Positions 11,479-59,132 of a stretch of DNA of 64,000 nucleotides are shown here, piece by piece. Source of the DNA: Streptomyces tateyamensis (GTDB taxonomy: Bacteria > Actinomycetota > Actinomycetes > Streptomycetales > Streptomycetaceae); NCBI RefSeq assembly GCF_003205575.1, contig NZ_PYBW01000070.1, positions 21,334 through 85,333 of the forward strand, given 5' to 3'. Below the pieces are notes generated by a model that ran no database searches, was not told the origin of the DNA, and saw nothing but the letters and a program-made list of their open reading frames with translations. The translations under genes were made by a program, and so were the position numbers. Every line of letters starts with the position of its first letter. Positions within the stretch are counted from its first letter, which is position 1.

Positions 11479-11484
11479 CCAGGC

Positions 11485-20050: not shown

Positions 20051-20054
20051 TGCC

Positions 20055-22981: not shown

Positions 22982-22988
22982 GGCCCGG

Positions 22989-23017: not shown

Positions 23018-23063
23018 ACCGACTGAACCTGTGGGCGGTACCAGGGCTGGTGTGCTCATGCCC

Positions 23064-23098
23064 TTGTGCCGCCACTGGGGCTACCTATAAAATGTCAC
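23064..23098 (+). promoter_or_regulatory. second cluster promoter with inverted TGTGACAT operator
   Basis: TTGTGC (23064-23069) and TATAAA (23086-23091) are 16 bases apart. On the minus strand 23098-23086 reads TGTGACATTTTAT, matching 11 of 13 positions of TGTGACATATTAC at 20038-20050. The element overlaps the -10 and the transcription start. The deaminase start follows 24 bases later. Confidence 0.55.
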
Positions 23099-23121
23099 AC
23101 CTCATAAAGGAGAGACGAACC

Positions 23122-24024: not shown

Positions 24025-24030
24025 GCGCCC

Positions 24031-24065
24031 GGGGGTCCGCCGCCCCCCTCGCGCGGCGGCCCCCC
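24031..24065 (+). other. intergenic hairpin between deaminase and epimerase genes
   Basis: CCGCCGC (24037-24043) pairs with GCGGCGG (24053-24059), and after a T-C mismatch GGGGG pairs with CCCCC, making a long stem seven bases after the stop. It could be a partial terminator or an RNA-processing site that lowers downstream expression. Confidence 0.45.
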
Positions 24066-24106
24066 GGCCCGTACCCGTCCATCCACCAGTTGACGAAGGG
24101 TCACCG

Positions 24107-25111: not shown

Positions 25112-26460
25112 GCACCACCCTGAGCTCGTACAACCCCGCCGACCCCGCCGACCTGGTGGTCCAGCTGGAGACCGCCGGCGCCGAGGGGACGGCGGCCGCC
25201 GTCGAGCGCGCCCGGGCCGCCCAGCCGGGCTGGCTGGCGGCCGGGGCCGGCGCCCGCTCGGCCGCGCTGACCCGGGCGGCGGCCGCCGTGGAGGGCGCCG
25301 CCGAGGAGCTGACCGCGCTCGTCGAGCGCGAGGTCGGCAAGCCGCGCGGCGAGGCGGCCGGCGAGCTGGCCCGCACGGTGGCGATCCTGCGCTACTACGC
25401 CCAGGCCCCCTACGCGCCCACCGGGGCGGTGCACGAGCCGGCCGCCGGCGCGGGCCTGCTGCTCACCCGCCGCCGCCCGCACGGGGTGGCCGGGCTGATC
25501 ACCCCGTGGAACTTCCCGCTGGCCATCCCGGTCTGGAAGCTCGCCCCGGCGCTGGCCACCGGCAACACCGCGGTGCTCAAGCCGGCCCCCGAGGCGACCG
25601 CCTGCGCGCTGCGGCTGGCCGAGCTGCTGGCGCTGCCCGAGGGCGTCCTGGAGGTGGTGCCCGGGGCCGCCGAGGAGGGGACGGCGCTGCTGGACGGCGC
25701 CGACGTGGTCTCCTTCACCGGCTCCACCGCCACCGGCGGCGCGGTGGTGCGGGCCTGCGCGGCCCGCGGCGTCCCGGTGCAGGCCGAGATGGGCGGGGTG
25801 AACGCCGCCCTGGTGCTCCCCGACGCCGACATCGAGCAGGCCGCCGCCCACCTGGCCTACGCCGTCGCCGGCTACGCGGGCCAGAAGTGCACCGCGACCA
25901 GCCGGATCATCGCGGTGGGAGCGGCCTACCAGCCGCTGCGCGAGGCGCTGGCCAAGGCGCTGGCCGGGCAGGCCGAGGTGGTGATCAACCAGGGTGCGCG
26001 CGAGCGGCTGGCCGGGGCGATCGACTCCGCACTGGCGGGCGGCGCCCAGCTGGTGGCGGGCGGTCAGCTGCCGCAGCGTCAGGGCTGGTTCATCGAGCCC
26101 ACCGTGCTGGACCAGGTGCCCGCCGACCACCCGCTGCTGGCCGAGGAGTTCTTCGGCCCGCTGGCGGTGCTGCTGCCGGCCGCCGACCTGGACGAGGCGA
26201 TCGCGCTGGCCAATGCCAACCGGCACAGCCTGGCCTGCTCGGTTCACTCGCGCGACCTGGACGCTGCGCTGGCCGCCGCCGACCGGCTGACCGCCGGGAT
26301 GATCCGGATCAACGCGCCGTCCAGCGGGGTCGACTTCCACCTGCCGTTCGGCGGGGCCAAGGCCGCCTCCTTCGGTGCCCGCGAGCAGGGGCAGGCGGCG
26401 CTGGAGTTCTACACCGCGAGCCGCACCGTCACGCTGCTGCCGGGCGGGGGCGCGCGGTGA
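25108..26460 (+). CDS. aldehyde dehydrogenase, probable 2-oxoglutarate semialdehyde dehydrogenase
   Basis: A 450-residue NAD(P)-dependent aldehyde dehydrogenase. TPWNFPLAIPVWKLAPALATG (read in parts), the NAD-loop FTGSTATGG, the general base Glu in AEMGGVN and the nucleophile Cys in AGQKCTATSR are all present. In this setting it should oxidise the semialdehyde made by the deaminase to 2-oxoglutarate, feeding the TCA cycle. Four-base overlaps at both ends show tight translational coupling. The C-terminal SSGVDFHLPFGGAKAAS is the usual bridging region. Confidence 0.87.
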   Translation: MSTTLSSYNPADPADLVVQLETAGAEGTAAAVERARAAQPGWLAAGAGARSAALTRAAAAVEGAAEELTALVEREVGKPRGEAAGELARTVAILRYYAQAPYAPTGAVHEPAAGAGLLLTRRRPHGVAGLITPWNFPLAIPVWKLAPALATGNTAVLKPAPEATACALRLAELLALPEGVLEVVPGAAEEGTALLDGADVVSFTGSTATGGAVVRACAARGVPVQAEMGGVNAALVLPDADIEQAAAHLAYAVAGYAGQKCTATSRIIAVGAAYQPLREALAKALAGQAEVVINQGARERLAGAIDSALAGGAQLVAGGQLPQRQGWFIEPTVLDQVPADHPLLAEEFFGPLAVLLPAADLDEAIALANANRHSLACSVHSRDLDAALAAADRLTAGMIRINAPSSGVDFHLPFGGAKAASFGAREQGQAALEFYTASRTVTLLPGGGAR

Positions 26461-27434
26461 CCGTGCTGGAGGTCGCCACCGTCGACTACCACACCGCCGG
26501 CGAGCCGTTCCGGATCGTGCCCGCCGGGCTGCCGCCGGTGCCCGGCGACACCGTCGCCGAGCGGCGGGCCATCGCGCTGGGCGCCGGCGGCACGGCGACC
26601 AGCCCGCGCCCGAGCGCACTGGACACCGTGCGCCAGCTGCTCACCCGCGAGCCGCGCGGGCACGCCGGCATGTACGGCGGCTTCGTGGTGCCGGCGGACG
26701 ACAGCGAGGCCCACTTGGGCGTCCTGTTCTTCCACAAGGACGGCTACTCCACGGCCTGCGGCCACGGCACCATCGCGCTCGGCGCCTGGGCCGTGGACAG
26801 CGGCCTGGTCGCCGCCCCCGAGGACGGCACGGCCCAGGTGCGGATCGACGTGCCGTCCGGCCGGGTCACCGCGCTGGTCCACCGGGTGGGCGGTCGGACC
26901 ACCGCGGTGACCTTCCGCAACGTCCCGACCAGGGTGCTCGCCCGCGCGGTGGGCGTCGACACCTCGGCCGGGAGGGTCGCGGTGGACCTGGCCGACTCCG
27001 GCGCCGTCTACGCCTCGGTGGCCGTGCCGGAGGTCTCGCCGGCCACCCTGGACGAACTGACCGCCCGCGGCCGCGAGATCCGGGCCGCACTGCTGGGCAG
27101 CCACGACCTGTACGGGGTGATCTTCCACCAGGAGTTGGCGGCGGGCCCCGAGGGGCAGCGGCGCCAGCGCAACGTCACCGTCTTCGCCGACGGCCAGATC
27201 GACCGCTCGCCCTGCGGCTCCGGCACCTCGGCCCGGCTGGCCCTGCTGGCCGCCGACGGCTGGCGCGGCGAGCTGCTCCACGAGTCGGTGATCGGCACCG
27301 TCTTCACCGGCCGGGTCACCGGCGAGCGGGACGGCGGCCTGGTCACCGAGGTCACCGGCCAGGCGCACCGCACCGGCGAGCACCGCTTCGTGCTCGCCGA
27401 GGCGGACGCGCTCGGCACGGGGTTCCTGCTGTGA
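26457..27434 (+). CDS. second proline racemase-family epimerase
   Basis: A 325-residue paralogue of the epimerase two genes upstream. It retains both cysteines (YSTACGHGTIALG, about 102; IDRSPCGSGTSARL, about 252), so a two-base racemase or epimerase is expected. Trans-3-hydroxyproline dehydratases usually replace the second Cys by Thr, which is not the case here. Candidate substrates are proline or another hydroxyproline isomer. The GTG start overlaps the aldehyde dehydrogenase stop, and its own stop overlaps the next start. Confidence 0.8.
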   Translation: MTVLEVATVDYHTAGEPFRIVPAGLPPVPGDTVAERRAIALGAGGTATSPRPSALDTVRQLLTREPRGHAGMYGGFVVPADDSEAHLGVLFFHKDGYSTACGHGTIALGAWAVDSGLVAAPEDGTAQVRIDVPSGRVTALVHRVGGRTTAVTFRNVPTRVLARAVGVDTSAGRVAVDLADSGAVYASVAVPEVSPATLDELTARGREIRAALLGSHDLYGVIFHQELAAGPEGQRRQRNVTVFADGQIDRSPCGSGTSARLALLAADGWRGELLHESVIGTVFTGRVTGERDGGLVTEVTGQAHRTGEHRFVLAEADALGTGFLL

Positions 27435-28327
27435 GCCTGCCCGAGCCGGCCGTGGAGCTGACGCCCCGGCAGGCGGCGGCGGCGATCGAGGCGGTGCTGC
27501 TGGGCGGCCTGGACCCGGAGGGGTGTCCGGCCCGGCTGGGGGTGCCGGTGCCGGCCGGAGAGCTGCTGGTGATGCCGGCCGCCACCGAGCGGTACGCCGG
27601 GGTCAAGGTCGCCGGGGTCGCGCCGGCCAACCCCGGGCGCGGGCTGCCCCGGATCACCGGCAGCTACCTGCTGCTGGACGGGGCCACCCTGGTGCCGCTG
27701 GCCCTGCTCGACGGCATGGCGCTCACCACGCTGCGCACGCCCGCGGTGACCGCCCTCGCGCTGGACCGGCTCGCCGCCCCGGACGCCGCGCACCTGGTGC
27801 TGTTCGGCGCCGGGCCGCAGGCGTACGGGCACCTGGCCGCACTGGCCGCGGTGCGCCCGCTGCGCCGGGTCACCGTGGTGGCCCGGCGCCCGGTGCCCGA
27901 GCTGCTGGCCTTCGCCGCCTCGCTGGGGCTTGCGGCCGAGCAGGGCGGTCCGGACGCGGTGGCCGGGGCGGACCTGGTGGTCTGCTGCACTACGGCGCAC
28001 GAGCCGCTCTTCGACGGGGCGCTGGTCGCCGACCACGCGGCGGTGGCGGCGGTCGGCTCGCACTCGCTGACCGGGCGCGAGGTGGACACCGTGCTGGTCC
28101 AGCGGTCCGCCTGCTACACCGAGGCGCGGGCGGTGGCCCGGCGGGAGGCGGGCGACCTGGTGCTGGGCGGCGCCGACTGGGCCTCGGTGGCCAACCTGGC
28201 CGAGCTGGTGACCGGCACCGCCGCGGTGCCGACGGACCGGCCGCGCTTCTTCAAGAGCGTCGGCATGGCCTGGGAGGACCTCGCGGTGGCCGCGGCGGTG
28301 CACGAGCGCGCAGCTGCCGGGGCGTGA
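27431..28327 (+). CDS. ornithine cyclodeaminase/mu-crystallin family, probable 1-pyrroline-2-carboxylate reductase
   Basis: A 298-residue NAD(P)-dependent enzyme. The Rossmann motif LVLFGAGPQAYGHLAAL is at about 117-133, and KVAGVAPANPGRGLP holds the conserved substrate Lys. Ornithine cyclodeaminase itself is less likely given the neighbours. In hydroxyproline loci this family reduces 1-pyrroline-2-carboxylate to L-proline, the step needed for trans-3-hydroxyproline or D-proline use. The GTG start overlaps the preceding stop. It is the last enzyme of the operon. Confidence 0.8.
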   Translation: MSLPEPAVELTPRQAAAAIEAVLLGGLDPEGCPARLGVPVPAGELLVMPAATERYAGVKVAGVAPANPGRGLPRITGSYLLLDGATLVPLALLDGMALTTLRTPAVTALALDRLAAPDAAHLVLFGAGPQAYGHLAALAAVRPLRRVTVVARRPVPELLAFAASLGLAAEQGGPDAVAGADLVVCCTTAHEPLFDGALVADHAAVAAVGSHSLTGREVDTVLVQRSACYTEARAVARREAGDLVLGGADWASVANLAELVTGTAAVPTDRPRFFKSVGMAWEDLAVAAAVHERAAAGA

Positions 28328-28380: not shown

Positions 28381-28410
28381 CTGACCTTTTGAAGAAACGT
28401 GACATTGTAC
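28381..28410 (+). promoter_or_regulatory. GntR gene promoter with GTGACAT element
   Basis: CGTGACATTGTAC (28398-28410) matches the elements at 20038 and 23098 and overlaps a possible -10 (CATTGT, 28403-28408) 16 bases after CTGACC. It lies 32 bases before the GntR start, so autoregulation is likely. Confidence 0.5.
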
Positions 28411-28442
28411 GCTGGTGCCTCCGCACCATCCGGAGGACCCCA

Positions 28443-29153
28443 GTGACCGAGTCGAAGCCCCGCCCCCTCATCTCCGTCCAGGAACGCCTGCGCGACCAGG
28501 TCGCGCACGCCCTGCGGGCCGCGCTGATCTCGGGTGAGCTGCGCCCCGGAGTGGTCTACTCCGCGCCTGCCCTGGCGGCCGACTTCGGGGTGTCGGCCAC
28601 CCCGGTGCGTGAGGCGATGCTCGACCTGGCCCGCGAGGGCCTGGTCGAGGCGGTGCGCAACAAGGGCTTCCGGGTCACCGAGATGACCGAGCGCGACCTG
28701 GACGACTACACCGAGATCCGCGCGCTGATCGAGGTCCCCACGGTCGGCCGGGTCACCCGTACCGCCACCGCCGAGCAGCTGGAGGCGCTGCGCCCCGACG
28801 CCGAGGCCATCGTGGCCGCCGCCCGGGCGCACGACCTGATCGGCTACCTGGAGGCGGACCGCCAGTTCCACCTCTCGCTGCTGGCCCTGGCCGGCAACGC
28901 CCGCCTGGTCGAGGTGGTCGGCGACCTGCGCAAGCGCTCCCGCCTCTACGGCCTGACCCGGCTGGACCAGCGCGGCGAACTGGTCTCCTCCGCCGAGGAG
29001 CACCTGGAACTGCTCGACCTGATGCTCACCGGTGACGCCGAGGCCGCCGAGTCCTGCATGGCCCGCCACCTCGGCCACATCCGCTCCCTGTGGGCCGAGG
29101 GCCGCGAGGAGGAGGCGGCCGAGAAGCCGGCGCTGCGGCTGGGGATGCGGTAG
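28443..29153 (+). CDS. GntR-family regulator (FCD/VanR subfamily), likely controls the hydroxyproline cluster
   Basis: A 236-residue regulator with an N-terminal winged HTH (about 10-75, RDQVAHALRAALISGEL and FGVSATPVREAMLDL) and an all-helical FCD ligand domain. The FCD metal ligands are visible as the Asp/His in ADRQFHLSL, the His in AEEHLELLD and the His pair in ARHLGHI. Such proteins bind carboxylate effectors and usually repress catabolic operons until the substrate appears. The GTG start has GGAGG nine bases upstream. The related operators at 20036, 23086 and 28398 suggest that it controls the whole cluster and itself. Confidence 0.9.
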   Translation: MTESKPRPLISVQERLRDQVAHALRAALISGELRPGVVYSAPALAADFGVSATPVREAMLDLAREGLVEAVRNKGFRVTEMTERDLDDYTEIRALIEVPTVGRVTRTATAEQLEALRPDAEAIVAAARAHDLIGYLEADRQFHLSLLALAGNARLVEVVGDLRKRSRLYGLTRLDQRGELVSSAEEHLELLDLMLTGDAEAAESCMARHLGHIRSLWAEGREEEAAEKPALRLGMR

Positions 29154-46513: not shown

Positions 46514-47965
46514 TCAGCCCAGCAGCCCGTCCATCCACTCCTCGATGTCCGCCACCGAGCGCGGCAGCGCGCCCGACATCAGCCGGGCGCCGTCCTCGGT
46601 GATCACCAGGTCGTCCTCGATCCGCACCCCGATGCCGCGCAGCTCGGGCGGCAGCGTGTCGTCGTCGGGCTGCAGGTACAGGCCGGGCTCGACGGTGAGC
46701 ACGTGGCCCGCCTCCAGCACCCCGTCCAGGTAGGTCTCGCTGCGCGCCTTGGCGCAGTCGTGCACGTCCATGCCGAGCATGTGGCCGCTGCTGCACAGGG
46801 TGTACCGCCGGTACAGCCCGGACTCGGTGGCCATCGCCTCGTCCGCCGAGACCCGCAGCACGCCCCAGTCGGCCAGGCCCTCGGCGATCACCCGCATGCC
46901 GGCCCGGTGGAAGTCGCGGAAGCTGGCGCCGGGCTTGAGCGCCGCGATTCCGGCGTCCTGGGCGGCCAGCACCAGCTCGTAGACGTCGCGCTGGACGGGG
47001 GAGAAGCGGCCGCTGAGCGGCAGGGTGCGGGTGATGTCGGCGGTGTAGAGGGTGTCGGTCTCCACGCCCGCGTCCAGCAGCAGCAGGTCGCCCCGGTCGA
47101 GCCGGCCGTCGTTGCGGATCCAGTGCAGCACGCCCGCGTGCGCACCGGAGGCGGCGATGGTCTCGTAGCCGGTCCCGTTGCCCTCGGCCCGCGCGCGCAG
47201 GTTGAAGACGCCCTCGACCCAGCGCTCGCCGCGCGGGTGGCGCAGCGCCTCGGGCAGCGCCCGGACCACGTCCGCGAAGCCGGCGGCGGTGTGGTCCACG
47301 GCGAGCTGCAACTGCTCGACCTCCCAGGCGTCCTTGACCAGGCGCAGCTCGCTGAGCACGGTGGCCAGCCCGTCGGAGAGGTTGAGCAGCGAGTCCACCA
47401 GCGGGTCGACCCCGGCCAGCACCCGCACCCCGGCGGCGGGTTGGGCACCGGTGAGCAGCTTCTCCAGGTCGTCCAGGTGCGCGGTGCGCACGCCCGTCAG
47501 CCGCTCGGCCTCGGCCAGGTCCGGCCGCCGCCCGACCCAGAACTCGCCGTACCGCCGGTCCCGGAAGAACTCGCCGTTGCCGCCGTCGCGCGGCGAGCGC
47601 GGCCGCAGGTAGAGCACCGGCTCGTGGCCCTCGGGTCCGCTGGGCTCCAGCACCAGCACGTGGCCCACCTGGTCCTCGCCGGTCAGCCCGGTCAGCCAGG
47701 CGTAGGCGGAGTGCGGGCGGAACCGGTAGTCGCAGTCGTTGCTGCGCACCTTCAGCCGGCCGGCCGGAACCACCAGGCGCTCGCCGGGAAAGGCGGCGGA
47801 GAGCCGGGTCCGACGCCCGGGCAGGGCGGCGTAGCCGGGCACCCGCTGCTCGGCCGGCAGCGGGGTGGGGGCCCAGTTGGTGCCCATGAAGGCGGACAGG
47901 GCGGCGGAGACGGGCAGGTCGTGGCTGCCGGTGTTCAGCGGCCTGGAGGCCTGGGAGGAGATCAT
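46514..47965 (-). CDS. pepP: Xaa-Pro aminopeptidase (aminopeptidase P, M24B)
   Basis: A 483-residue dinuclear metallopeptidase that removes the N-terminal residue from peptides with proline in position two. The N-terminal domain (to about 185) contains RSNDCDYRFRPHSAYAWLTG. The catalytic pita-bread domain has metal ligands Asp in LLLDAGVETDTLYTADITRT (read LLLDAGVETD and TADITRT), His in GHMLGMDVHD, Glu in LTVEPGLYLQ and Glu in GVRIEDDLVIT. The ATG at 47965 has AGGAGC upstream. It is divergent from a dipeptide transporter operon, consistent with hydrolysis of imported X-Pro peptides. Confidence 0.93.
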   Translation of the reverse strand: MISSQASRPLNTGSHDLPVSAALSAFMGTNWAPTPLPAEQRVPGYAALPGRRTRLSAAFPGERLVVPAGRLKVRSNDCDYRFRPHSAYAWLTGLTGEDQVGHVLVLEPSGPEGHEPVLYLRPRSPRDGGNGEFFRDRRYGEFWVGRRPDLAEAERLTGVRTAHLDDLEKLLTGAQPAAGVRVLAGVDPLVDSLLNLSDGLATVLSELRLVKDAWEVEQLQLAVDHTAAGFADVVRALPEALRHPRGERWVEGVFNLRARAEGNGTGYETIAASGAHAGVLHWIRNDGRLDRGDLLLLDAGVETDTLYTADITRTLPLSGRFSPVQRDVYELVLAAQDAGIAALKPGASFRDFHRAGMRVIAEGLADWGVLRVSADEAMATESGLYRRYTLCSSGHMLGMDVHDCAKARSETYLDGVLEAGHVLTVEPGLYLQPDDDTLPPELRGIGVRIEDDLVITEDGARLMSGALPRSVADIEEWMDGLLG

Positions 47966-48055: not shown

Positions 48056-48084
48056 TTGCTAGTGCAATTTCACATTACTATGTT
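48056..48084 (+). promoter_or_regulatory. dipeptide transporter promoter with ATTTCACA in the spacer
   Basis: TTGCTA (48056-48061) and TATGTT (48079-48084) are 17 bases apart. ATTTCACA (48067-48074) in the spacer equals eight bases of the operator dyad at 57949-57964, and GGGTCACAC follows at 48087-48095. The site is shared with the divergent aminopeptidase gene, so one regulator could control both. Confidence 0.5.
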
Positions 48085-48182: not shown

Positions 48183-49925
48183 ATGACCAGGCGTACCCAC
48201 GTCGCCCTCGCGGCGGCGATCACGGCGGCACTGACCCTCTCCCTCGGAGCGTGCACCAGCAGCAAGAGCGGCAGCGGCGACGGAAACGGTGACGGCAAGG
48301 GCATCACCACGGCCGGGAACGGGATCATCGGTGGCACGCCGGTCAAGGGCGGCACCCTGCACATCCTGTCCAACCAGGACATCTCCCAGCTCGACCCGGC
48401 GCGCAACTGGACCGAGCCCGAGATGGACTTCGGCATCCGGCTGCTCTACCGCACGCTGACCACCTTCAAGGCCGCGCCGGGCAAGGACGGCCTGCAGATC
48501 GTCGGCGACCTGGCCACCGACACCGGCCAGTCCAGCGACGGCGACAAGACCTGGACCTTCCACCTGAAGGACGGCGTCAAGTACGAGGACGGCACGCCGA
48601 TCGTCTCGCAGGACATCAAGTACAACGTCGAGCGCTCCTTCGACCCGGACCTGTCCGGCGGCCCGGACTACGCCAAGAACTACCTGGTCGCCCCGGCCGG
48701 CTACAAGGGCCCGCTGAAGGGTGCCGAACTCGGCAACGACTCGGTCGAGACCCCGGACGCGAAGACCATCGTCTTCCATCTCAAGCGCCCGGTGGCCGAG
48801 TTCGGCTACACCGTCACGCTGCCGACCTTCGCCCCGGTACCCAAGGCCCACGAGGGCGGCACCACCTACGGCAACCACGTCTTCTCCTCCGGCCCGTACA
48901 AGGTGGAGGCCTACGACCGCGGCAAGCAGCTGACCCTGGTCCGCAACACCAACTGGGACCAGTCCACCGACTCGGTCCGCAAGGCCTACCCGGACAAGAT
49001 CGTGATGGACCAGTCCGGCAGCCCGGAGGGCATCGCCGACCGCATGATCGCCAACCAGGGCGACGACCAGAGCGCGGTCATGTACGCCGACCTGTCGCAC
49101 GCCAAGGTCGCCGACGTGATCACCAACCCGGACGTCAAGGCCCGCCTGGTCAGCGAGAACGAGAACTGCACCGCCATGGTCACCATGGACACCCAGAAGG
49201 CGCCGTTCGACAACGTCAACGCCCGTCTCGCGGTCGAGTACGCGATCGACAAGGAGGCCTACCAGTCGGCCGCCGGCGGCCCGGCGCTGGCCGACTTCGC
49301 CACCACCTTCCTGCCGCCGGCGCTGACCGGCGGCACCGCGGTCGACCACTTCAAGATCCCGACCGCCGGTGACCCGGACAAGGCCAAGGCCTATCTGGCC
49401 AAGGCCGGCCTGCCGAACGGCTTCTCCACCGAGATCACCGTCTCGAACGGCGGGAAGGCCCAGGCCGAGGCGGTCCAGGCCGGGCTCAAGCGGGTCGGCA
49501 TCAACGTCACCATCAACGCGGTCGACGCGAGCGTGGCCACCTCCACCATCGGCGACAAGAACAAGCAGACCGGCCTGTCGCTCAACGGCTGGTGCCCGGA
49601 CTACCCGTCCGGCGCCACCTTCCTGCCGATGCTCTTCGACAGCCGGATCATCTCGGACACCGGCAACAGCGGGAACTCCAGCCGCCTGGCCGACCCGGCG
49701 GTGGACGCGGAGATGGACCGGATCGCGACCCTGACCGACTCGACCGCGGCCGACCAGGCCTGGAACGCGCTGGACGCCAAGATCATGGACGCGGCACCCG
49801 CGGTCCCGGTGACCTGGCAGAAGAAGCCGCTGCTGGTCGGCTCCAACGTGGCCGGCGCCTTCGGCAGCCCGATCTGGTCCGCGCAGATCGACTACGCCAC
49901 CGTCGGCCTCAAGTCCGTCAAGTAG
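48183..49925 (+). CDS. dipeptide/oligopeptide ABC transporter substrate-binding lipoprotein (SBP family 5)
   Basis: A 580-residue extracellular binding protein. The signal peptide ends in the lipobox LGAC (ITAALTLSLGACTSS). The family 5 signature is visible as GGTLHILSNQDISQLDPARN and WTFHLKDGVKYEDGTPI, with SSGPYKVEAYDRGKQLTL further on. It captures peptides and hands them to the two permeases. The ATG at 48183 has GGAG six bases upstream. It is first of five genes (binding protein, two permeases, two ATPases). Its gene is divergent from an Xaa-Pro aminopeptidase gene. Confidence 0.92.
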   Translation: MTRRTHVALAAAITAALTLSLGACTSSKSGSGDGNGDGKGITTAGNGIIGGTPVKGGTLHILSNQDISQLDPARNWTEPEMDFGIRLLYRTLTTFKAAPGKDGLQIVGDLATDTGQSSDGDKTWTFHLKDGVKYEDGTPIVSQDIKYNVERSFDPDLSGGPDYAKNYLVAPAGYKGPLKGAELGNDSVETPDAKTIVFHLKRPVAEFGYTVTLPTFAPVPKAHEGGTTYGNHVFSSGPYKVEAYDRGKQLTLVRNTNWDQSTDSVRKAYPDKIVMDQSGSPEGIADRMIANQGDDQSAVMYADLSHAKVADVITNPDVKARLVSENENCTAMVTMDTQKAPFDNVNARLAVEYAIDKEAYQSAAGGPALADFATTFLPPALTGGTAVDHFKIPTAGDPDKAKAYLAKAGLPNGFSTEITVSNGGKAQAEAVQAGLKRVGINVTINAVDASVATSTIGDKNKQTGLSLNGWCPDYPSGATFLPMLFDSRIISDTGNSGNSSRLADPAVDAEMDRIATLTDSTAADQAWNALDAKIMDAAPAVPVTWQKKPLLVGSNVAGAFGSPIWSAQIDYATVGLKSVK

Positions 49926-49945
49926 CCACGAGGGACTGCGAAAAG

Positions 49946-50896
49946 GTGACCACCACCGTTCCTGCCGTGCAGGAGCCGACCGAGCGTCAGGGCCAGGTCC
50001 CGGCCTCGCCCTGGCGCTCGGCCTGGCGCCGCCTGCGCCGCCGCCCGATCGCCCTGGTCGGCCTCGGCCTCATCGTCTTCTTCGTGCTGGCCGCGCTGCT
50101 GGCTCCGGTGCTGACCGCGATCTCCGGCCACGGGCCGACCGACACCGACAAGCTGGCCGTCGACCGCTTCCTGGGCGGCCTGCCCAAGGGCAGCCTCGGC
50201 GGGGTGAGTTCGCAGCACTGGCTGGGCGTCGAGCCGGGCCTGGGCCACGATATCTTCGCCCGGCTGCTCTACGGGGCCCAGATCTCGCTGCTGGTGGCGT
50301 TCAGTGCCGCACTGCTGATCACCGTGGTGGGTGTGGCGCTCGGCGTCACGGCCGGCTACTTCGGCGGCAAGGTCGACATGGTGATCAGCCGCTTCATGGA
50401 CATCATGATGTCCTTCCCGAGCCTGATCTTCATGATCGCGCTGCTCTCGGTGGCCAAGGACGTCAACCGGGTGCTGCTGCTGATCATCGTGATGTCGCTG
50501 TTCACCTGGCCCTACATCGCCCGGGTGATCCGCGGTCAGACGATCTCGCTCAAGCACCGCGAGTACGTCGAGGCGGCCCGGGCCGGCGGTACCAGCAGCA
50601 CCCGGATCGTGCTCACCGAGATCCTGCCCAACCTGACCAGCACGATCATCGTCTACATCACCCTGGCGATCCCGGGCCTGATCGGCTCCGAGGCGGGCCT
50701 GACCTACCTGGGCGTCGGCGTCCAGCCGCCCACCCCGTCCTGGGGCCAGATGATCGCCGACTCCGAGCTCTACTACAAGCTCGACCCGATGTTCTTCGTC
50801 CTGCCCTGCGCCTGCCTGTTCCTGGTGGTGCTCGGCTTCACCCTGCTCGGCGACGCGCTGCGCGACGTCCTGGACCCGAAGGGCGGCAACGGGTGA
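49946..50896 (+). CDS. dipeptide ABC transporter permease, DppC type
   Basis: A 316-residue membrane protein with six helices. The N-terminal RRLRRRPIALVGLGLIVFFV is the OppC/DppC start, HWLGVEPGLGHDIFARLLYGA the following periplasmic loop, and EYVEAARAGGTSSTRIVLTEILPN (read in parts) the EAA loop that contacts the ATPases. The GTG start is 20 bases after the binding protein stop. The stop overlaps the next permease start. Confidence 0.92.
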   Translation: MTTTVPAVQEPTERQGQVPASPWRSAWRRLRRRPIALVGLGLIVFFVLAALLAPVLTAISGHGPTDTDKLAVDRFLGGLPKGSLGGVSSQHWLGVEPGLGHDIFARLLYGAQISLLVAFSAALLITVVGVALGVTAGYFGGKVDMVISRFMDIMMSFPSLIFMIALLSVAKDVNRVLLLIIVMSLFTWPYIARVIRGQTISLKHREYVEAARAGGTSSTRIVLTEILPNLTSTIIVYITLAIPGLIGSEAGLTYLGVGVQPPTPSWGQMIADSELYYKLDPMFFVLPCACLFLVVLGFTLLGDALRDVLDPKGGNG

Positions 50897-51882
50897 TCGG
50901 CTACCTGATCCGCCGGCTCGCCGGAATCGCGCTCACCCTGCTGGTGATCTGCGCGGTCACCTTCACCATCTTCTACCTGCTGCCCTCCGACCCCGCGCAG
51001 GCGTTCTGCGGCAAGGACTGCACGCCGGACCGGGTGGCCGAGGTGCGCCGGCAGATGGGCCTGAACGCCCCGCTGATCGTGCAGTTCGGCCGCTACGTGC
51101 TGGCCATCTTCGCCGGCCGCACCATGGGTACCGGCAGCTACGCGGTGCACTGCGACTTCCCCTGCTTCGGCTACTCCTTCCAGACCGGCCTGCCGGTCTG
51201 GAACATGATCACCGACCGGCTGTCGGTCAGCATCTCGCTGGCCATCGGCTCGGCCGTGCTCTGGCTGGGCATGGGGCTGCTCACCGGCGTGGTCTCCGCG
51301 CTGCGCAAGAACAGCTGGGTGGACCGCACCCTGATGATCGGCACCATCGGCGCCGCCGCCATGCCGGTCTACTTCACCGCGATGCTGCTGCTCTACTTCT
51401 TCTGCGCGCAGACCAATCTGATCCCATACCCGCGCTACGTCGACTTCACCGCCGATCCGCTGGCCTGGTCGCAGAACATGCTGCTGCCCTGGCTCACCCT
51501 GGCGCTGGCCACCGCGGCCATGTACGCCCGGATGACCCGCAGTTCGGTGATCGAGACGCTCGGCGAGCCGTTCGTGCGCACCGCCAGGGCCAAGGGCCTG
51601 CGTGAGCGCCGGGTGGTCAGCAAGCACGGCCTGCGACCCGCGCTGACCCCGGTGGTCACCATGCTCGGCATGGACCTCGGCGGCCTGCTGGCCGGCGCCG
51701 TGATCACCGAGCAGCTGTTCGGACTGCCCGGGGTCGGCAAGCTGTTCGCCGACGCCCTGCACAAGTCCGACCAGCCGGTGGTCATGGGCGTCACGCTGGT
51801 CGCCTCCTTCTTCATCGTCACGTCCAACCTGGTGGTCGACGTGCTCTACGCCTGGATCGACCCGCGAGCGAGGCTGTCGTGA
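50893..51882 (+). CDS. dipeptide ABC transporter permease, DppB type
   Basis: A 329-residue membrane protein of the DppB/OppB class. The start GYLIRRLAGIALTLLVI and the conserved FYLLPSDPAQ are typical, as is the EAA loop FVRTARAKGLRERRV. A four-cysteine region (FCGKDCTP and HCDFPCFG) in the first outer loop is unusual and may form disulphides. GTGA overlaps at both ends couple it to the neighbours. Gene order C before B is reversed relative to E. coli dpp. Confidence 0.92.
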   Translation: MIGYLIRRLAGIALTLLVICAVTFTIFYLLPSDPAQAFCGKDCTPDRVAEVRRQMGLNAPLIVQFGRYVLAIFAGRTMGTGSYAVHCDFPCFGYSFQTGLPVWNMITDRLSVSISLAIGSAVLWLGMGLLTGVVSALRKNSWVDRTLMIGTIGAAAMPVYFTAMLLLYFFCAQTNLIPYPRYVDFTADPLAWSQNMLLPWLTLALATAAMYARMTRSSVIETLGEPFVRTARAKGLRERRVVSKHGLRPALTPVVTMLGMDLGGLLAGAVITEQLFGLPGVGKLFADALHKSDQPVVMGVTLVASFFIVTSNLVVDVLYAWIDPRARLS

Positions 51883-52856
51883 CACTGCTCGAAGTCCGCA
51901 ACCTCGCGGTGGAGTTCAACACTCCCGACGGCGCGGTCCAGGCGGTCAAGGGGGTCGACTTCGCGGTCGACCGCGGTCGGGTGCTCGGCCTGGTCGGCGA
52001 GTCCGGCTCGGGGAAGTCCGTCACCTCACTGGCCGTCATGGGCCTGCACCGCGGCGCCAAGGTGACCGGCTCGGCGGTCTTCGACGGCACCGAGCTGATC
52101 GGCGCCGACCCGGAGGCGGTCCGGCGACTGCGCGGACGCCGGATGGCCATGGTCTTCCAGGACGCGCTGACCGCGCTGCACCCGTACTTCAGCATCGGCG
52201 ACCAGATCGCCGAGGCGCACCGCGAGCACTTCGGCTCCAGCCGCAAGCAGTCCTGGGCCCGCGCGGTCGAGGTGCTGGGCGAGGTCGGCATCCCCGAACC
52301 GGCGCGCCGTGCCGGGGAGTTCCCGCACCAGTTCTCCGGCGGCATGCGCCAGCGCGCGATGATCGCGCTGGCGCTGTCCTGCGAGCCCGAGCTGGTGATC
52401 GCCGACGAGCCGACCACCGCGCTGGACGTCACGGTGCAGGCCCAGGTGCTGGACCTGCTGATGCGGCTCAAGGACGACCGCGGCCTGGGCATCATCATGA
52501 TCACCCACGACCTCGGCGTGATCGCCCGGGTGGCTGACGAGGTGCTGGTGATGTACGGCGGCTCGGCCGTCGAACAGGCAGGCGTGGACACGCTGTTCAC
52601 CGCACCCCGGCACCCCTACACCCGAAGCCTGCTGGACTCGCTGCCTCGGTTGGAGAGCGCCGAGGGCGAACCGCTGCGGGCCATCCCCGGCAGCCCGCCC
52701 TCGCTGCTCACCCCGCCGGCCGGCTGCGCCTTCCACCCGCGCTGCCCGGTCTACGCGGCCGCCCCGCACGACGGCTGCACCGCGCAGCGCCCGCCGCTGC
52801 TCGCGGTGGCCGCCGCCCACCGCAGCGCCTGCAGCCACCCCGAGGTGACCGAATGA
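51879..52856 (+). CDS. dipeptide ABC transporter ATPase, DppD type
   Basis: A 325-residue ATPase with Walker A GESGSGKS, signature FSGGMRQRAMIA, Walker B LVIADEPTTALD and switch His in MITHDLGV. The C-terminal oligopeptide-family domain has the cysteine set CAFHPRCPVY...C...C that binds a 4Fe-4S cluster in some relatives. The GTG start overlaps the permease stop, and its stop overlaps the next ATPase start. It energises peptide import with the DppF-type partner. Confidence 0.93.
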   Translation: MTLLEVRNLAVEFNTPDGAVQAVKGVDFAVDRGRVLGLVGESGSGKSVTSLAVMGLHRGAKVTGSAVFDGTELIGADPEAVRRLRGRRMAMVFQDALTALHPYFSIGDQIAEAHREHFGSSRKQSWARAVEVLGEVGIPEPARRAGEFPHQFSGGMRQRAMIALALSCEPELVIADEPTTALDVTVQAQVLDLLMRLKDDRGLGIIMITHDLGVIARVADEVLVMYGGSAVEQAGVDTLFTAPRHPYTRSLLDSLPRLESAEGEPLRAIPGSPPSLLTPPAGCAFHPRCPVYAAAPHDGCTAQRPPLLAVAAAHRSACSHPEVTE

Positions 52857-53818
52857 CGACTCCCCTGATGCAGGTCACCGACCTCGGCATGACCTTCGCC
52901 GCCCGCCGGCGCGGCCCCGGGATCAAGGCGGTCGACGGCCTGGACTTCGAGGTCCGGGCCGGCGAGACGCTGGGCCTGGTCGGCGAGTCCGGCTGCGGCA
53001 AGTCCACCACCGGGCGGATGCTGGTGCGCCTGCTCGACCCGACGGCCGGGCAGGTGCACTTCCGCGGCCAGGACATCAGCACCCTGAGCCAACGCCAACT
53101 GCGCCCACTGCGCAGCAAGTTGCAGATCATCTTCCAGGATCCGTTCGCCTCGCTGAACCCGCGGCAGACGGTCCGCCAGATCATCAGCGCCCCGCTGCGG
53201 GCCCAGGGGGCGGGGAAGGCCGAGATCCAGCGCGAGGTGCGGGAGCTGGTGGGCCTGGTGGGCCTGACCGCCGAGCACCTGGACCGCTACCCGCACCAGT
53301 TCTCCGGCGGCCAGGCTCAGCGGATCGGCATCGCCCGCGCCCTGGCCACCCGCCCCGAACTGGTGGTGGCCGACGAGCCGGTCTCCGCGCTGGACGTCTC
53401 CATCCAGGCCCAGATCGTCGGCCTGCTGGAGCGGCTGCAGCGCGAACTGGGAGTCGCCTACGTCTTCATCGCGCACGACCTGGCGGTGGTGAAACACATC
53501 AGCCACCGGGTCGCCGTGATGTACCTGGGCCGCATCGTCGAGATCGGCGCCAAGGAGCGGGTCTACGCCGAACCGGCGCACCCGTACACCAAGGCCCTGC
53601 TGTCCGCGGTGCCGCTGCCGGATCCGGCGGCCGAGCGGGCCAGGGAGCGGATCGTGCTGCTCGGCGACCCGCCGAGCCCCGCGAACCCGCCCAGCGGGTG
53701 CACCTTCCACCCCAGGTGCCCCAAGGCCCAGGAGATCTGCCGCAGCGAGCCACCCCTGCTGCAGCTCACCACCGGCCCGGGGGAGCGGCAGGTCGCCTGC
53801 CACTTCCCGCAGGCGTAG
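52853..53818 (+). CDS. dipeptide ABC transporter ATPase, DppF type
   Basis: A 321-residue ATPase with Walker A GESGCGKS, Q-loop IFQDPFASLNPRQT, signature FSGGQAQRIGIARAL, Walker B VVADEPVSALD and the switch His in FIAHDLAVV. The C-terminus has CTFHPRCPKAQEIC and a last Cys, as in oligopeptide ATPases. ATGA overlap with the preceding gene. A 13-bp terminator follows. Confidence 0.93.
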   Translation: MTTPLMQVTDLGMTFAARRRGPGIKAVDGLDFEVRAGETLGLVGESGCGKSTTGRMLVRLLDPTAGQVHFRGQDISTLSQRQLRPLRSKLQIIFQDPFASLNPRQTVRQIISAPLRAQGAGKAEIQREVRELVGLVGLTAEHLDRYPHQFSGGQAQRIGIARALATRPELVVADEPVSALDVSIQAQIVGLLERLQRELGVAYVFIAHDLAVVKHISHRVAVMYLGRIVEIGAKERVYAEPAHPYTKALLSAVPLPDPAAERARERIVLLGDPPSPANPPSGCTFHPRCPKAQEICRSEPPLLQLTTGPGERQVACHFPQA

Positions 53819-54031: not shown

Positions 54032-55801
54032 GTGGCAACGCTGAGTTGGGACGGCAGTGCGCCGCCCTCGGGGCGGACCGAGACCAGCCGCGAGGTGGCG
54101 CTGCCGGTGGCGGTGGCGGTGTCGGACGCGGAGGCGGCGTCCGGGACGGTGGCCGGTCTGCGGGTGCGGGCGACCGCGATCGGGGCCGCGGACCTGCGGG
54201 TGGAGGTCTCGCCGGCCGGACCCGGGGTGTGGCTGATCGCGGTCGCGCCGCTCGGCGCGGTGGATGCCGACCCCGCGCGGGTGCGGGTCGAGTGGCGCCT
54301 GCCCTGCGCCGGGGCCACCGCGTTGTGGCGGCCCGACACCGATGCCCGCTGGTTGCCGCCGTCCTGGAGCCGGCCGCGGGTCGCCTCCTTCGCCCAGGGC
54401 GTGCCGGTCGGCTGCCTGGTCGGCGCCGGCGACGCCGCGCTGGTCGGCTACGCGGTGGCCGAGCGGGTGCTGCCGGTCAGCATCGGGGAGGGCACGGTCG
54501 AGGAGACCGGGGACTTCGCCTGCTGGGTGGAGCAGGAGGGGGAGCTGCTGCTGCGGCTGGATCTGAGTGGCCGTCAGTTCAGCGATGCGGTGCAGGAGAT
54601 GGCCCGGTGGTGGGCCTCGTCGCACGGGTCGGCGATCGAGGTGCCGGCCGGTGCCTTCGAGCCGGTCTTCTGCACCTGGTACGCGCGGCACCTGGAGATC
54701 ACCGCCGGGGAGGTGGAGCGGCTGGCCGCGCTGGCCGCGCCGCTCGGGTTCACCGGGCTGATCGTGGACGACGGATGGCAGACGGCGGAGACCTCCCGCT
54801 CCTACGCCACCACCGGCGACTGGGAGCCCGCCTTCCCGGACTTCGCCGCGCACGTGGCAGGGGTGCAGGGGCTGGGCCTCGCCTATCTGCTGTGGTGCGC
54901 CCCGCCGTTCGCCGGCGACCGGAGCGCGGCCGGACAGCGGTTCGGGAAGCAACGGCTTGAGTACCGCGAGGAGTTGGAGACCTCGGTGCTCGACCCCGCG
55001 GTACCCGGGGTGCGGGCGCACCTGGTGGCGCGGCTGGCCGTCCTGGTCGAGGAGTACGGGTTGGACGGCCTGAAGGTGGACTTCGTCGACACCTTCGCGC
55101 GCTACGGCGGGGACGCGGCGGCGATCCGGCAGCTGCTCGCCGAGCTGGCCAGGGCGCTGCCGCCCGGCCTGCTGATCGAGCACCGGCAGCCGTACGTGGG
55201 TCCCGGGTTGTGGCCCTACGCGACCATGGTGCGGGCCACCGACTGCCCGCACAACGCGGCCGAGAACCGCCAGCGCACCGCCGACCTGCGGCTGACCGCC
55301 GGGCCACTGGCCGTGCACGCGGACCCGCTGACCTGGCATCCCGCGGAGTCGCCGGCCGGGATCGCGGCGCTGATCCAGAACGTGCTGTTCGCCACCGTGC
55401 AGGTCTCGGTGGACCTGGGTGTGCAGCGCGAGGAGCAGTTGGCCGCCCTGCGGTTCTGGCTTTCCGTCAGCCGGCAGTACGTGGACCTGTTGCAGAAGGG
55501 CGAGTTCCGCGCGCACCGACCGGACCTCGGGTACCCGCTGCTGTCCGCCTCGCTCGGGGCGCAGCGGGCGTACGGGCGGTACGGGCCGGTGCCGATCGCG
55601 GGGGACGGGGACTGGAGCCTGCTCCTGGTGGCGAACGCGGACCCGGACCCCCTGGTGCACCTCGGCTTCCCGCAGCCGCTCGGCCCCACCACCCTCCTGG
55701 TCCAGGACCCGACCGGAGCCACCCTGACCCGCACCACGGTCCGGAGCGACACCCTCCAGGTCCGGGTCCCCCGGGGCGGGTTGCTGACGCTGACGCGGTA
55801 G
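54032..55801 (+). CDS. alpha-galactosidase (GH36-like, melibiase)
   Basis: A 589-residue glycoside hydrolase. The barrel begins near residue 200: FEPVFCTWYARH, GLIVDDGWQ (about 245), LLWCAPPFAG, and the nucleophile Asp in GLDGLKVDFVDTF (about 348). A later Asp in VRATDCPHNAAENRQR fits the acid/base. No signal peptide is seen, so it is probably cytosolic and acts on imported galactosides or on related substrates. The GTG at 54032 has GAGAGGA upstream; upstream in-frame codons run into the inverted repeat. No sugar transporter is next to it. Confidence 0.83.
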   Translation: MATLSWDGSAPPSGRTETSREVALPVAVAVSDAEAASGTVAGLRVRATAIGAADLRVEVSPAGPGVWLIAVAPLGAVDADPARVRVEWRLPCAGATALWRPDTDARWLPPSWSRPRVASFAQGVPVGCLVGAGDAALVGYAVAERVLPVSIGEGTVEETGDFACWVEQEGELLLRLDLSGRQFSDAVQEMARWWASSHGSAIEVPAGAFEPVFCTWYARHLEITAGEVERLAALAAPLGFTGLIVDDGWQTAETSRSYATTGDWEPAFPDFAAHVAGVQGLGLAYLLWCAPPFAGDRSAAGQRFGKQRLEYREELETSVLDPAVPGVRAHLVARLAVLVEEYGLDGLKVDFVDTFARYGGDAAAIRQLLAELARALPPGLLIEHRQPYVGPGLWPYATMVRATDCPHNAAENRQRTADLRLTAGPLAVHADPLTWHPAESPAGIAALIQNVLFATVQVSVDLGVQREEQLAALRFWLSVSRQYVDLLQKGEFRAHRPDLGYPLLSASLGAQRAYGRYGPVPIAGDGDWSLLLVANADPDPLVHLGFPQPLGPTTLLVQDPTGATLTRTTVRSDTLQVRVPRGGLLTLTR

Positions 55802-55870: not shown

Positions 55871-57934
55871 TCAGCCCAAGGCCTCCCGCAGGAACGCGAG
55901 TTCGGCGCTCACGATGCGCTCGTTCGCCCCGTACGGGGTCAGGTGGGTGATGCCCGGGAGTGCGAGCAGGTTGTGCGGGCGGCCCGCCCGGTGCAGGGCC
56001 TGCGACAGCCGCAGCGTGTGCGAGGGGTGCACGTTGTCGTCCGCCAGGCCGTGGATCAGCAGCAGCGGCCGAGAGAGTGACGGAGCATCAGGCAGCAGGC
56101 AGTCCGCCAGGTAGCCGGCCGCGTTCTCGGCCGGCAGGCCGAGGTACCGCTCCGTGTAGGCGGTGTCGTAGCACCGGAAGTCCGTGGGTCCGGCCCCGGC
56201 CGAGGCCGCGTGGAACACGTCCGGGCGTCGCAGCACCGCCATCGCGGCGAAGTACCCGCCGTACGACCAGCCGCGGACCCCGACCCGGGCCAGGTCCAGG
56301 TCCGGCTCCCGCTCGGCCAGCGCGTGCAGGGCTGCCACCTGGTCCTCCAGGGTGACCTTGGAGAAGCCCCGGAACATGGCCCGGGTGAAGGACGGCGACA
56401 CGAACGGCGTCCCCCGGTTGTCCGTGGTCACCACCGCGAAGCCCTGGTCGGCCCACCACTGCCGCAGCTGCCAGCGCCGCGGCTCGTTGGCCACCGCCTG
56501 GTAACCGGGCCCGCCGTAGACGTCCAGCAGCACCGGAAGCTTGCGCCCGGCCACGTGCGCGCGGGGGTACACCACGGCCGTGGGCAGGCCCAGTTCGGTG
56601 ACCCGGGCCAGCTTCGGGCGCACCAGGTAGGGGAACGGCTCGGCGAGGTCGGCGAGTTCGATCCCGGTGCCGAGGATCCGGCGGCGGATCCCCTCGGGGG
56701 TCGCGGAGACCAGCAGCACGTGCGCCCCGCCGGCCAGCGCCGCGTGCACGCCGGGACCCTCGCTGAGCTCCTCGAGCGTGCCGTCCGCCGGGTCGAGGGC
56801 GAAGACCTGCTGGTCCGCCGGGTCCCCCTGGCCGGCCTCGATCAGCAGCTTCTCGCCCAACCGCCCGACCACCCGCCGCACCTGGAGCGTGGACGGGGTC
56901 ACCACCCGCCCGTCCACCGCCAGCCCGCGCGCCGCGCCGTCGGCCGTGTCGGTGGCGGTGAGCAGTCGGCCCCCGGTCAGCCGGGCGGGCGTGCCGGGCA
57001 CGTCGTCCACCCAGAACTCGTCGCGGGTACGGGAGAGTTCGACGGTCTTGCCGGTCCGGGGGTCGGCGCTCAGCAGCAGCACCGTCTGCTGCAGCCGGTC
57101 GGCGACGGTGAGCAGGATCTCGTCGGCGCGGTCCCACTCGGCGGCGCAGAGGTACGGGTGGCGCTCGGCGTCCCAGTCCAGGCGGACCCGGCCGCCGTCC
57201 AGGCCGAGCACCCAGAGCTGGACGTCCGCGTTGGCCCCGCCCACCAGGGGGTAGGCGAAGGACTCGGCGGGGCGCTCGGGGTGGGCGGCGTCGGCGAACC
57301 AGCGCAGCGGCAGGGCCGACTCGTCGACCCGGGCGGCCAGCACCGACCGGCCGTCCGGCGCCCACCAGTGCCCGTGGTGGCGGTTGAGCTCCTCGGCGGC
57401 GGCGAACTCCGCCACGCCCCAGCGCGCGCCGTCGGCGGGGCTGAGCGGTTCGTCCCGGCCGGTCAGGTGCAGCGCGTCGGCGGTCACGTAGGCCACCACC
57501 GAGCCGTCGGGGCTCGGCTGCGGATCGAAGGCGGGTCCGGCCGTGGGCAGTTCCTCGGCGGCGCCGTCCGCGACCCGGAACAGCCGCCCGTCCAGCGCGA
57601 AGACGGCGGTCCGCGCGTCCGGCGTGGCGGCGAAGCTGCCGATGCCGCGGGCGACCAGCCGGCTGCGCTCGCGCAGCCGGCGTTCCAGCACCGGCAGTTC
57701 GTCCCGGTCGCCGGTGCGGCCCGTGACCAGCGCGGTGGGGTCGGCCAGCAGGCGCTCCTGGCCGGTGGCCGGGTCCAGCTCCCAGAGCCGGTCGAAGGGG
57801 TCGCGCGGCCCGGCCGAGCGCAGGAAGAGGAGGCGGGAGCCGTCGGCGGCGAAGCTGAAGGCGCGCGGCGCACCGTAGCTGAACCTTCCGCTGGCGGCAC
57901 TGAGCGCGAGAAACTGTTCATCGAGATCGGTCAC
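55871..57934 (-). CDS. S9 family peptidase, dipeptidyl peptidase IV-like
   Basis: A 687-residue serine peptidase with an N-terminal beta-propeller (to about 430) and an alpha/beta-hydrolase domain. The catalytic triad is Ser557 in GWSYGGY, Asp632 or Asp633 in HGLADDNVH and His664 in GITHL. The double Glu (181-182) in VAEFAAAEELNRHHG corresponds to the DPP-IV motif that holds the free N-terminus of the substrate, so release of X-Pro dipeptides is expected. No signal peptide is seen, so it should be cytosolic. The GTG at 57934 is likely leaderless, six bases after CATACT. Divergent from the aminotransferase gene. Confidence 0.88.
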   Translation of the reverse strand: MTDLDEQFLALSAASGRFSYGAPRAFSFAADGSRLLFLRSAGPRDPFDRLWELDPATGQERLLADPTALVTGRTGDRDELPVLERRLRERSRLVARGIGSFAATPDARTAVFALDGRLFRVADGAAEELPTAGPAFDPQPSPDGSVVAYVTADALHLTGRDEPLSPADGARWGVAEFAAAEELNRHHGHWWAPDGRSVLAARVDESALPLRWFADAAHPERPAESFAYPLVGGANADVQLWVLGLDGGRVRLDWDAERHPYLCAAEWDRADEILLTVADRLQQTVLLLSADPRTGKTVELSRTRDEFWVDDVPGTPARLTGGRLLTATDTADGAARGLAVDGRVVTPSTLQVRRVVGRLGEKLLIEAGQGDPADQQVFALDPADGTLEELSEGPGVHAALAGGAHVLLVSATPEGIRRRILGTGIELADLAEPFPYLVRPKLARVTELGLPTAVVYPRAHVAGRKLPVLLDVYGGPGYQAVANEPRRWQLRQWWADQGFAVVTTDNRGTPFVSPSFTRAMFRGFSKVTLEDQVAALHALAEREPDLDLARVGVRGWSYGGYFAAMAVLRRPDVFHAASAGAGPTDFRCYDTAYTERYLGLPAENAAGYLADCLLPDAPSLSRPLLLIHGLADDNVHPSHTLRLSQALHRAGRPHNLLALPGITHLTPYGANERIVSAELAFLREALG

Positions 57935-57940
57935 CGGTAG

Positions 57941-57969
57941 AGTATGCGGTGTGAAATGTCACACTTCAA
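57941..57969 (-). promoter_or_regulatory. S9 peptidase promoter with GTGTGA-n4-TCACAC operator in the spacer
   Basis: On the minus strand TTGAAG (57969-57964) and CATACT (57946-57941) are exactly 17 bases apart. The spacer contains the perfect dyad GTGTGA-AATG-TCACAC (57949-57964), which includes TGTGACAT on the minus strand, as in the hydroxyproline operators at 20038 and 23098. A plus-strand -10 (TAGAGT, 57938-57943) serves the aminotransferase gene. Confidence 0.6.
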
Positions 57970-59132
57970 TGGATCTGCCGGACCCGATTCCCGGAGCCGC
58001 CGAGCTGTTCGCCCTGGACCCGGCGGTGGCCCACCTCAACCACGGCTCCTACGGCGCGGTGCCCGACGAGGTGCGGCAGGCCCAGGCGGCGCTGCGCGCC
58101 GAGCAGGAGGCGGACCCGGACGGGTTCTTCCTCCAGCTGCCCGGGCGGATCGCGCAGACCCGCGCCGCGATCGCCCCGCTGCTCGGCGCCGACCCGGCGG
58201 GGCTGGCCCTGCTGAGCAACGTCACCGAGGCCGTGGCGGTCGCGCTGGACAGCATCCCGTTCGGGCCCGGCGAGGAGATCCTGGTCACCGACCACGGGTA
58301 CGGGGTGGTCAACCGGGCCGTCGAGCGCCGGGCCGCCGAGTGCGGGGCGACGATGCGCACCGTCCCGGTCGCGCTGGACGCGGTCGACCCGGGCGCGGCG
58401 GTGCTGGCGGCGCTGGGCCCGAGCACCCGGGCGGTGGTCCTGGACCGGATCACCTCGCCCACCGCGCGCGAGTTCGCCACCCGGGAGCTGGTGGCCGCGC
58501 TGGCCGCTCGCGGCGTGATCACCCTGGTGGACGCCGCCCACGCGCCCGGCATGCTCGACTCCCACCTGGACTCCCAGCTGGACCAGGAAGTCGGCGGGCC
58601 CGACTTCTGGTTCGGGAACCTGCACAAGTGGGCCTTCGCGCCGCGCCCGACCGCGGTGCTGGCGGTGGCCCCGAAGTGGCGCGCGCGGGTGCGGCCGCTG
58701 ACCTACTCCTGGGAGCACGAGGGCGGCTACCCGGGCAACGTGGAGTGGCGCGGGACGGCGGACTACACCGGCTGGCTGGCCGCACCGGCGGGCCTGGCGC
58801 TGCTGGCCCGGCTGGGCGTGTCCCGGGTGCGCGAGCACAACGAGCGGCTGGCCGCCTACGGGCAGGCGCTGCTGGTGGAGCGGGCGGGCCTGGTCGCCCT
58901 GCCGGCCTCGCCCGGGGTGTCGATGCGCGCGGTGCGGCTGCCCGCGGGCACGGCCGAGCGCGAGGAGCAGGTGCGGCCGCTGATGGCGGCGGTGCTGGAG
59001 CAGTTGGGGACCAGGATCGCGGTGCGGCCGTGGGCCGGGGGCGGGGTGCTGCGGATCAGCGCCCAGGTCTACAACCGCCCCGCGGAGTACGAGCGGCTGG
59101 CCGAGGGGCTCCGGGGAGTGCTCGGATCCTGA
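57951..59132 (+). CDS. class V aminotransferase-fold PLP enzyme (isopenicillin N epimerase-like)
   Basis: A 387-393-residue PLP enzyme. HLNHGSYGAVPDEV near the start, LDRITSPTAREF, the PLP-contacting Asp in ITLVDAAHAPGM and the Schiff-base Lys in WFGNLHKWAFAP (about 227) are present, a pattern shared with isopenicillin N epimerase and some desulfurases. It may epimerise or cleave an amino acid. The GTG at 57951 is eight bases after TAGAGT and would be leaderless; ATG 57969 is the alternative, and neither has a Shine-Dalgarno. It shares a regulatory region with the S9 peptidase, so it may act on released amino acids. Confidence 0.82.
   Translation: MKCHTSMDLPDPIPGAAELFALDPAVAHLNHGSYGAVPDEVRQAQAALRAEQEADPDGFFLQLPGRIAQTRAAIAPLLGADPAGLALLSNVTEAVAVALDSIPFGPGEEILVTDHGYGVVNRAVERRAAECGATMRTVPVALDAVDPGAAVLAALGPSTRAVVLDRITSPTAREFATRELVAALAARGVITLVDAAHAPGMLDSHLDSQLDQEVGGPDFWFGNLHKWAFAPRPTAVLAVAPKWRARVRPLTYSWEHEGGYPGNVEWRGTADYTGWLAAPAGLALLARLGVSRVREHNERLAAYGQALLVERAGLVALPASPGVSMRAVRLPAGTAEREEQVRPLMAAVLEQLGTRIAVRPWAGGGVLRISAQVYNRPAEYERLAEGLRGVLGS

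Follow-up and report, generated by a model that had tools for sequence, protein, structure and literature searches.

A perfect two-fold dyad between two divergent genes of Streptomyces tateyamensis is very likely an operator of HypR, the repressor of hydroxyproline (Hyp) catabolism; a HypR dimer bound there is predicted to block both genes until L-Hyp is available, so that they would be induced jointly with the Hyp programme. The dyad, GTGTGA-AATG-TCACAC (GTGTGAAATGTCACAC), occupies positions 57949-57964 of the window, the whole stretch of 64,000 nucleotides that was analysed, and is common to the genes of a DPP-IV-type serine peptidase and a class V PLP-dependent enzyme. It is a genuine operator. 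The initial annotation had suggested that a dimer bound at the dyad could silence both genes, which is supported as a prediction derived from footprinting, a weight matrix built without DPP sites, and the published HypR footprint (PMC6608401).

The dyad and the divergent promoters

The leftward gene (55871-57934, minus strand) encodes the DPP-IV-type peptidase, a protein of 687 residues with Peptidase_S9 and DPPIV_N domains. An obvious signal peptide is absent, as judged by eye, which is in line with a role of the enzyme after uptake. The rightward gene (57969-59132, plus strand) encodes the class V enzyme of 387 residues, which is aminotransferase/C-S-lyase-like and has C-S lyases and PvdN as its nearest solved relatives. 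Between the DPP-IV gene and the oligopeptide transporter operon described below lies the gene of a melibiase-like protein (54095-55801), with a Pfam Melibiase match below the curated cut-off.

The gap between the DPP-IV and aminotransferase starts is 34 bp long and contains the perfect dyad that had been claimed. GTGTGANNNNTCACAC is matched there with 0 mismatches and has no second exact copy in the window or in the genome (7,455,770 bases, 7.46 Mb), where three further places with different centres are one mismatch away. From base composition at 72% GC, the expected number of perfect copies is 0.12 for a genome and 3e-7 for a gap of 34 bp. The half sites GTGA and TCAC look like those of a CRP/FNR-family or Rex-type global regulator (TGTGA...TCACA). 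CRP and Rex operators, however, need GTGA-N6-TCAC, whereas the dyad has the spacing GTGA-N4-TCAC, and for a global regulator numerous sites would be expected, not a single exact copy. A site of this kind was therefore rejected as extremely improbable.

Positions 57941-57969 run from the proposed -10 to the proposed -35 of the DPP-IV gene, which read TTGAAG-17-CATACT on the minus strand. The putative -10, CATACT (57941-57946), lies 6 nt upstream of the GTG start codon at 57934 and is fairly conserved, with CATA(C/G/A)T in 14 of the 23 divergent loci introduced below. The putative -35 slot, TTGAAG (57964-57969), drifts among the same loci and is not conserved in relatives. Since each hexamer has only four of the six consensus bases (8/12 overall) and a promoter scan with a cut-off of 9/12 listed no promoter at this position, the earlier description as near-ideal was overstated, and the promoter is an ordinary one. 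The hexamers are 17 bases apart, and the dyad between them shares one base with the -35 hexamer. With a -10 only 6 nt from GTG 57934, the DPP-IV mRNA could be leaderless in S. tateyamensis. Rightward transcription of the aminotransferase gene may start from a putative TANNNT element, TAGAGT, at 57939-57944 on the plus strand. The dyad had further been said to cover the start region of this gene, and a possible start codon, GTG 57951, is indeed inside it; this codon was rejected in favour of ATG 57969, just outside the dyad, which fits the alignments of the relatives and is most likely the true start.

A DNA search of 61 genomes revealed 30 loci, including that of S. tateyamensis, 23 of which carry both genes in divergent orientation and were picked by their genes, not by the motif. 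TGTGAAATGTCACAC is kept in all 23 genomes with the pair, although the gaps between the aligned gene ends vary from 34 to 235 bp. Fifteen of the 16 dyad bases are invariant across these genomes, whereas the flanks have drifted. The perfect 6-bp stem and 4-nt loop would also allow the dyad to act as RNA, forming a small hairpin in the leader of an mRNA; alternatively, the palindrome might have arisen by chance. Arguing against both is that the invariant bases include the loop and show no covariation. Moreover, DPP-IV starts downstream of the dyad, and the same element recurs at other promoters, several with only one strong half, so that it is not a stem that is being preserved. The invariant loop and the recurrence of the element led to the rejection of the hairpin, and both possibilities are considered highly improbable.

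The association of the predicted HypR operator with DPP-IV extends beyond the divergent pair. The regions upstream of DPP were scanned in 80 loci, 78 of which were assessable (L203 and L231 were left out). In 59 of the 78 the motif was found at 0-3 mismatches, all of them in Kitasatospora and Streptomyces (Streptomycetaceae) except for two in Nonomuraea. The remaining 19, from Micromonospora, Dactylosporangium, Longispora, Planotetraspora, one distant Streptomyces and MAGs, have only matches with 5-7 mismatches, which is the chance level. An adjacent aminotransferase gene is present in 22 of the motif-bearing loci and absent from the vicinity in 37, including loci of Streptomyces and Nonomuraea, which indicates that the operator follows DPP and not the aminotransferase. 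Among three inspected loci with the aminotransferase but without DPP, a site with two mismatches occurs in L030 but not in L009 and L016. In Streptomyces, OppA and hypR are mostly no more than about 8-12 kb away from DPP, and the DPP sites vary in the same way as HypR sites.

The probable HypR and its predicted sites in the window

The window contains a gene for a GntR regulator with an FCD domain (28443-29153, plus strand; 236 residues), 29 kb from the dyad. The domain matches are 2.3e-16 for GntR and 7.3e-26 for FCD, and all five DNA-contact, six metal-site and four ligand residues named for S. coelicolor HypR in PMC6608401 are retained at a constant offset of +1, one residue being common to the metal-site and ligand sets. 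The gene is linked to the Hyp catabolic operon, and its promoter contains the exact footprinted 11-mer TACAATGTCAC, in a single copy in the window. By synteny and by these residues, the protein is the predicted HypR orthologue.

The Hyp catabolic cluster (20055-28327, plus strand) encodes DAO, a 2Fe-2S protein, an FAD oxidoreductase, a DHDPS-like protein, Hyp epimerase, an aldehyde dehydrogenase, a second proline-racemase-family protein and an OCD/mu-crystallin protein; the 2Fe-2S protein and the aldehyde dehydrogenase were assigned by sequence only. The last three genes, at 25108-28327, belong to the Kitasatospora Hyp operon and perhaps represent a trans-3-hydroxyproline branch. The aldehyde dehydrogenase is perhaps an alpha-KGSA dehydrogenase, which is absent from the S. 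coelicolor operon. Upstream of the cluster, at 5350-12846, are Pup-proteasome-like genes (ARC ATPase, Dop, Pup, PrcB, PrcA and PafA, named from their sequences).

Sites of the same type as the dyad are found at three promoters of the cluster: at the start of the Hyp operon (ATGTGACATATTACTG, 20037-20052, plus strand), upstream of the DHDPS-like deaminase gene (GTGTGACATTTTATAG, 23085-23100, minus strand) and in the hypR promoter (ACGTGACATTGTACGC, 28397-28412, plus strand), where the reverse complement holds the 11-mer, the core of the published footprint. A further HypR-like site (ATGTGAAATTGCACTA, 48060-48075, minus strand) lies between the gene of an aminopeptidase P (46514-47965, minus strand; 483 residues, AMP_N and Peptidase_M24) and OppA, in front of an oligopeptide ABC transporter operon (48183-53818, plus strand), of which SBP_bac_5 and one ABC ATPase were identified by Pfam and the rest by sequence. 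All eight window matches to RTGTGAMATKTCACAY with at most four mismatches are intergenic: the dyad, 20037, 23085, 28397, 48060 and 48080 (both aminopeptidase P/OppA), and 40135 and 40142, which share one other gap and have low matrix scores. RYGTGAMATWKYAY, a pattern drawn from the five window sites, matches exactly those five in the whole genome, compared with 0 for the control.

The relation of the dyad to these sites was assessed with a weight matrix trained solely on the Hyp-cluster promoter sites of relatives, the S. tateyamensis genome and all DPP sites having been left out. In the window the three Hyp-cluster sites score 31.0, 29.8 and 23.9, followed by the dyad in fourth place (22.4), the aminopeptidase P/OppA site (18.8) and the next match at 11.2. 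This bears out the initial remark that one dyad half resembles the hydroxyproline operator. The maximum did not exceed 12.4 in 30 order-1 simulated windows. In 30 simulations of 64 kb with intergenic composition, far more than the 8.3 kb of real intergenic sequence, the maximum was on average 11.8 and at the highest 21.1, which is close to the score of the dyad and above that of the OppA site. The latter would thus not stand on its score alone; it is conserved in 41 of the 42 assessable OppA promoters, a count that leaves out seven rows whose start lay outside the locus. Within the genus, 34 loci that surround the GntR orthologue were compared: 32 have a site in the hypR promoter and 32 in the DHDPS promoter, and a site precedes DAO in all 24 whose DAO promoter falls inside the stretch.

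Similar sites also precede genes of secreted proteins. M9 collagenase genes of relatives (L084, L088 and L093, by Pfam M9) have sites with one mismatch upstream. In 17 loci (L183-L189, L191, L193-L197, L200, L203, L238 and L239), ATGTGAAATATTACNN lies upstream of a gene just after DPP whose secreted product has about 700-815 residues. The sole such protein scanned with Pfam (L102:339-2705) is an M6 immune-inhibitor-A-type peptidase, and the M6-type gene with ATGTGAAATATTACNN is a probable further HypR target. ATGTGAAATGTCATAT adjoins a LysR gene in L080, L086, L096 and L098, three of which also have a second oligopeptide ABC transporter. In L166 (G028), hypR and its own site are kept, but the gene does not have the Hyp operon directly upstream of it. 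A HypR paralogue with 68% identity (G000:C154:15342-15995, L173) lies away from Hyp genes, and no HypR-like site with at most four mismatches was found near it.

Proposed control and a probable second regulator

We infer that, as long as Hyp is absent, HypR represses DPP-IV and probably also the aminotransferase. Bound to the two-fold symmetric site, a HypR dimer would span the DPP-IV promoter from -35 to -10 as well as the initiation region of the aminotransferase gene, and would thereby block RNA polymerase. L-Hyp, or a metabolite of Hyp, would relieve HypR, relief by L-Hyp having been published for S. coelicolor; the Hyp operon would then be turned on together with DPP-IV and the aminopeptidase P/Opp pair, and probably with the aminotransferase. 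In this scheme, peptides rich in Pro and Hyp, derived from collagen or plant wall proteins, would be imported and cut next to proline, with Opp, aminopeptidase P and DPP-IV furnishing the catabolic operon with free Hyp and with Pro/Hyp peptides, and Hyp would be burned to alpha-ketoglutarate.

It is unlikely that the dyad is instead owned by another dimeric regulator, one that in other Kitasatospora recognises ATGTGAAATGTCACAT ahead of genes for small secreted proteins and alpha-galactosidases, the DPP site then being no more than HypR-like. Such sites do exist outside the DPP locus, and a reversed-pattern control gave 0 in the 61 genomes. In G027, ATGTGAAATGTCACAT or sites with one mismatch from it precede small secreted protein, alpha-galactosidase and TAP-like hydrolase genes. 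This genome has no HypR orthologue (best match 33%), which indicates that another regulator probably uses a near-identical operator. The DPP site, however, was predicted by a matrix trained on Hyp-cluster sites only, and in Streptomyces it varies as HypR sites do, mostly in the neighbourhood of OppA and hypR noted above. Many of the ATGTGAAATGTCACAT-type sites have longer symmetric arms that are missing at the DPP site, and G027 itself yielded, among the matches listed, only stray ones of 27-31 bp to the DPP/aminotransferase promoter region. An ArsR-like gene, assigned by sequence only, is often beside ATGTGAAATGTCACAT targets and occurs near DPP in L010 and L103; its product is a weak rival for the dyad. 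In principle, DPP might also come under the control of the second regulator.

The genes with ATGTGAAATGTCACAT or a near copy close upstream include those of secreted proteins of about 150 residues (L064-L068, L070, L071, L075-L077, L082, L083 and L089), at which the longer arms and the neighbouring ArsR-like gene are frequent; the one protein scanned gave no Pfam match. Sites are also present upstream of secreted glycoside hydrolases of the alpha-galactosidase or ricin/CBM35 type (L069, L091, L087, L090 and L094, only L091 and L090 by Pfam).

If HypR binds the dyad, as we consider very likely, peptide import and Pro-specific cleavage would be tied to hydroxyproline catabolism, and the small known regulon would grow into a whole programme for the use of collagen and plant hydroxyproline-rich proteins in Streptomycetaceae. 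For structural studies, too, the dyad is predicted to be a strong site, and it might serve in a Hyp-inducible bidirectional promoter. A more far-reaching proposal is tentative and rather doubtful: the class V PLP enzyme would be a dedicated step in the use of Hyp/Pro-rich peptides, co-switched with DPP-IV by one HypR dyad; the HypR regulon would span secreted collagenase and M6 proteases, Opp import, Pro-specific peptidases and the conversion to alpha-ketoglutarate; and a second, unrelated regulator with an almost identical operator would serve secreted proteins and alpha-galactosidases.

Comparison with known HypR systems

The best solved-structure matches of the window HypR are TM0439-type FCD regulators (PDB 3fms and 3sxy, which we take to be TM0439), from another organism and with other targets. 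The closest known system is that of S. coelicolor, in which HypR (SCO6294) represses the Hyp operon, an M9 collagenase gene and SCO5281. There, induction of the HypR-controlled promoters by L-Hyp is seen in the wild type and lost in a hypR deletion mutant, zinc abolishes binding, and HypR was modelled on TM0439, a metal-binding dimer (PMC6608401). The predicted S. tateyamensis system shares with it a repressor of the GntR/FadR-FCD type whose DNA-contact and metal residues are the same, the Hyp gene order, the 11-mer, which is identical in the autoregulatory site, the position of sites over -10 and start regions, and, in relatives (L084, L088 and L093), M9 collagenase genes with a site. HypR of Sinorhizobium meliloti, as described in the same paper, is likewise a FadR-like GntR repressor of Hyp genes.

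The targets and the site differ. The passages of PMC6608401 drawn on here name neither DPP-IV nor the class V aminotransferase, aminopeptidase P or Opp as a target. A search of open-licence PubMed Central papers gave PMC6608401 as the one paper on the Streptomyces HypR operator and nothing that pointed to control of DPP-IV, aminopeptidase P or Opp by HypR. The DPP/aminotransferase site, unlike the S. coelicolor sites, is a perfect two-fold dyad, which bears on the operator symmetry that the HypR paper called 'not clear' (PMC6608401); compared by eye, its plus strand matches 11 of the 13 defined positions of the published 14-nt consensus, CTNTGC(A/C)ATGTCAC. The regulator and the pathway are known; what appears to be new are three predicted targets, DPP-IV, Opp and aminopeptidase P, and an operator of clear two-fold symmetry.
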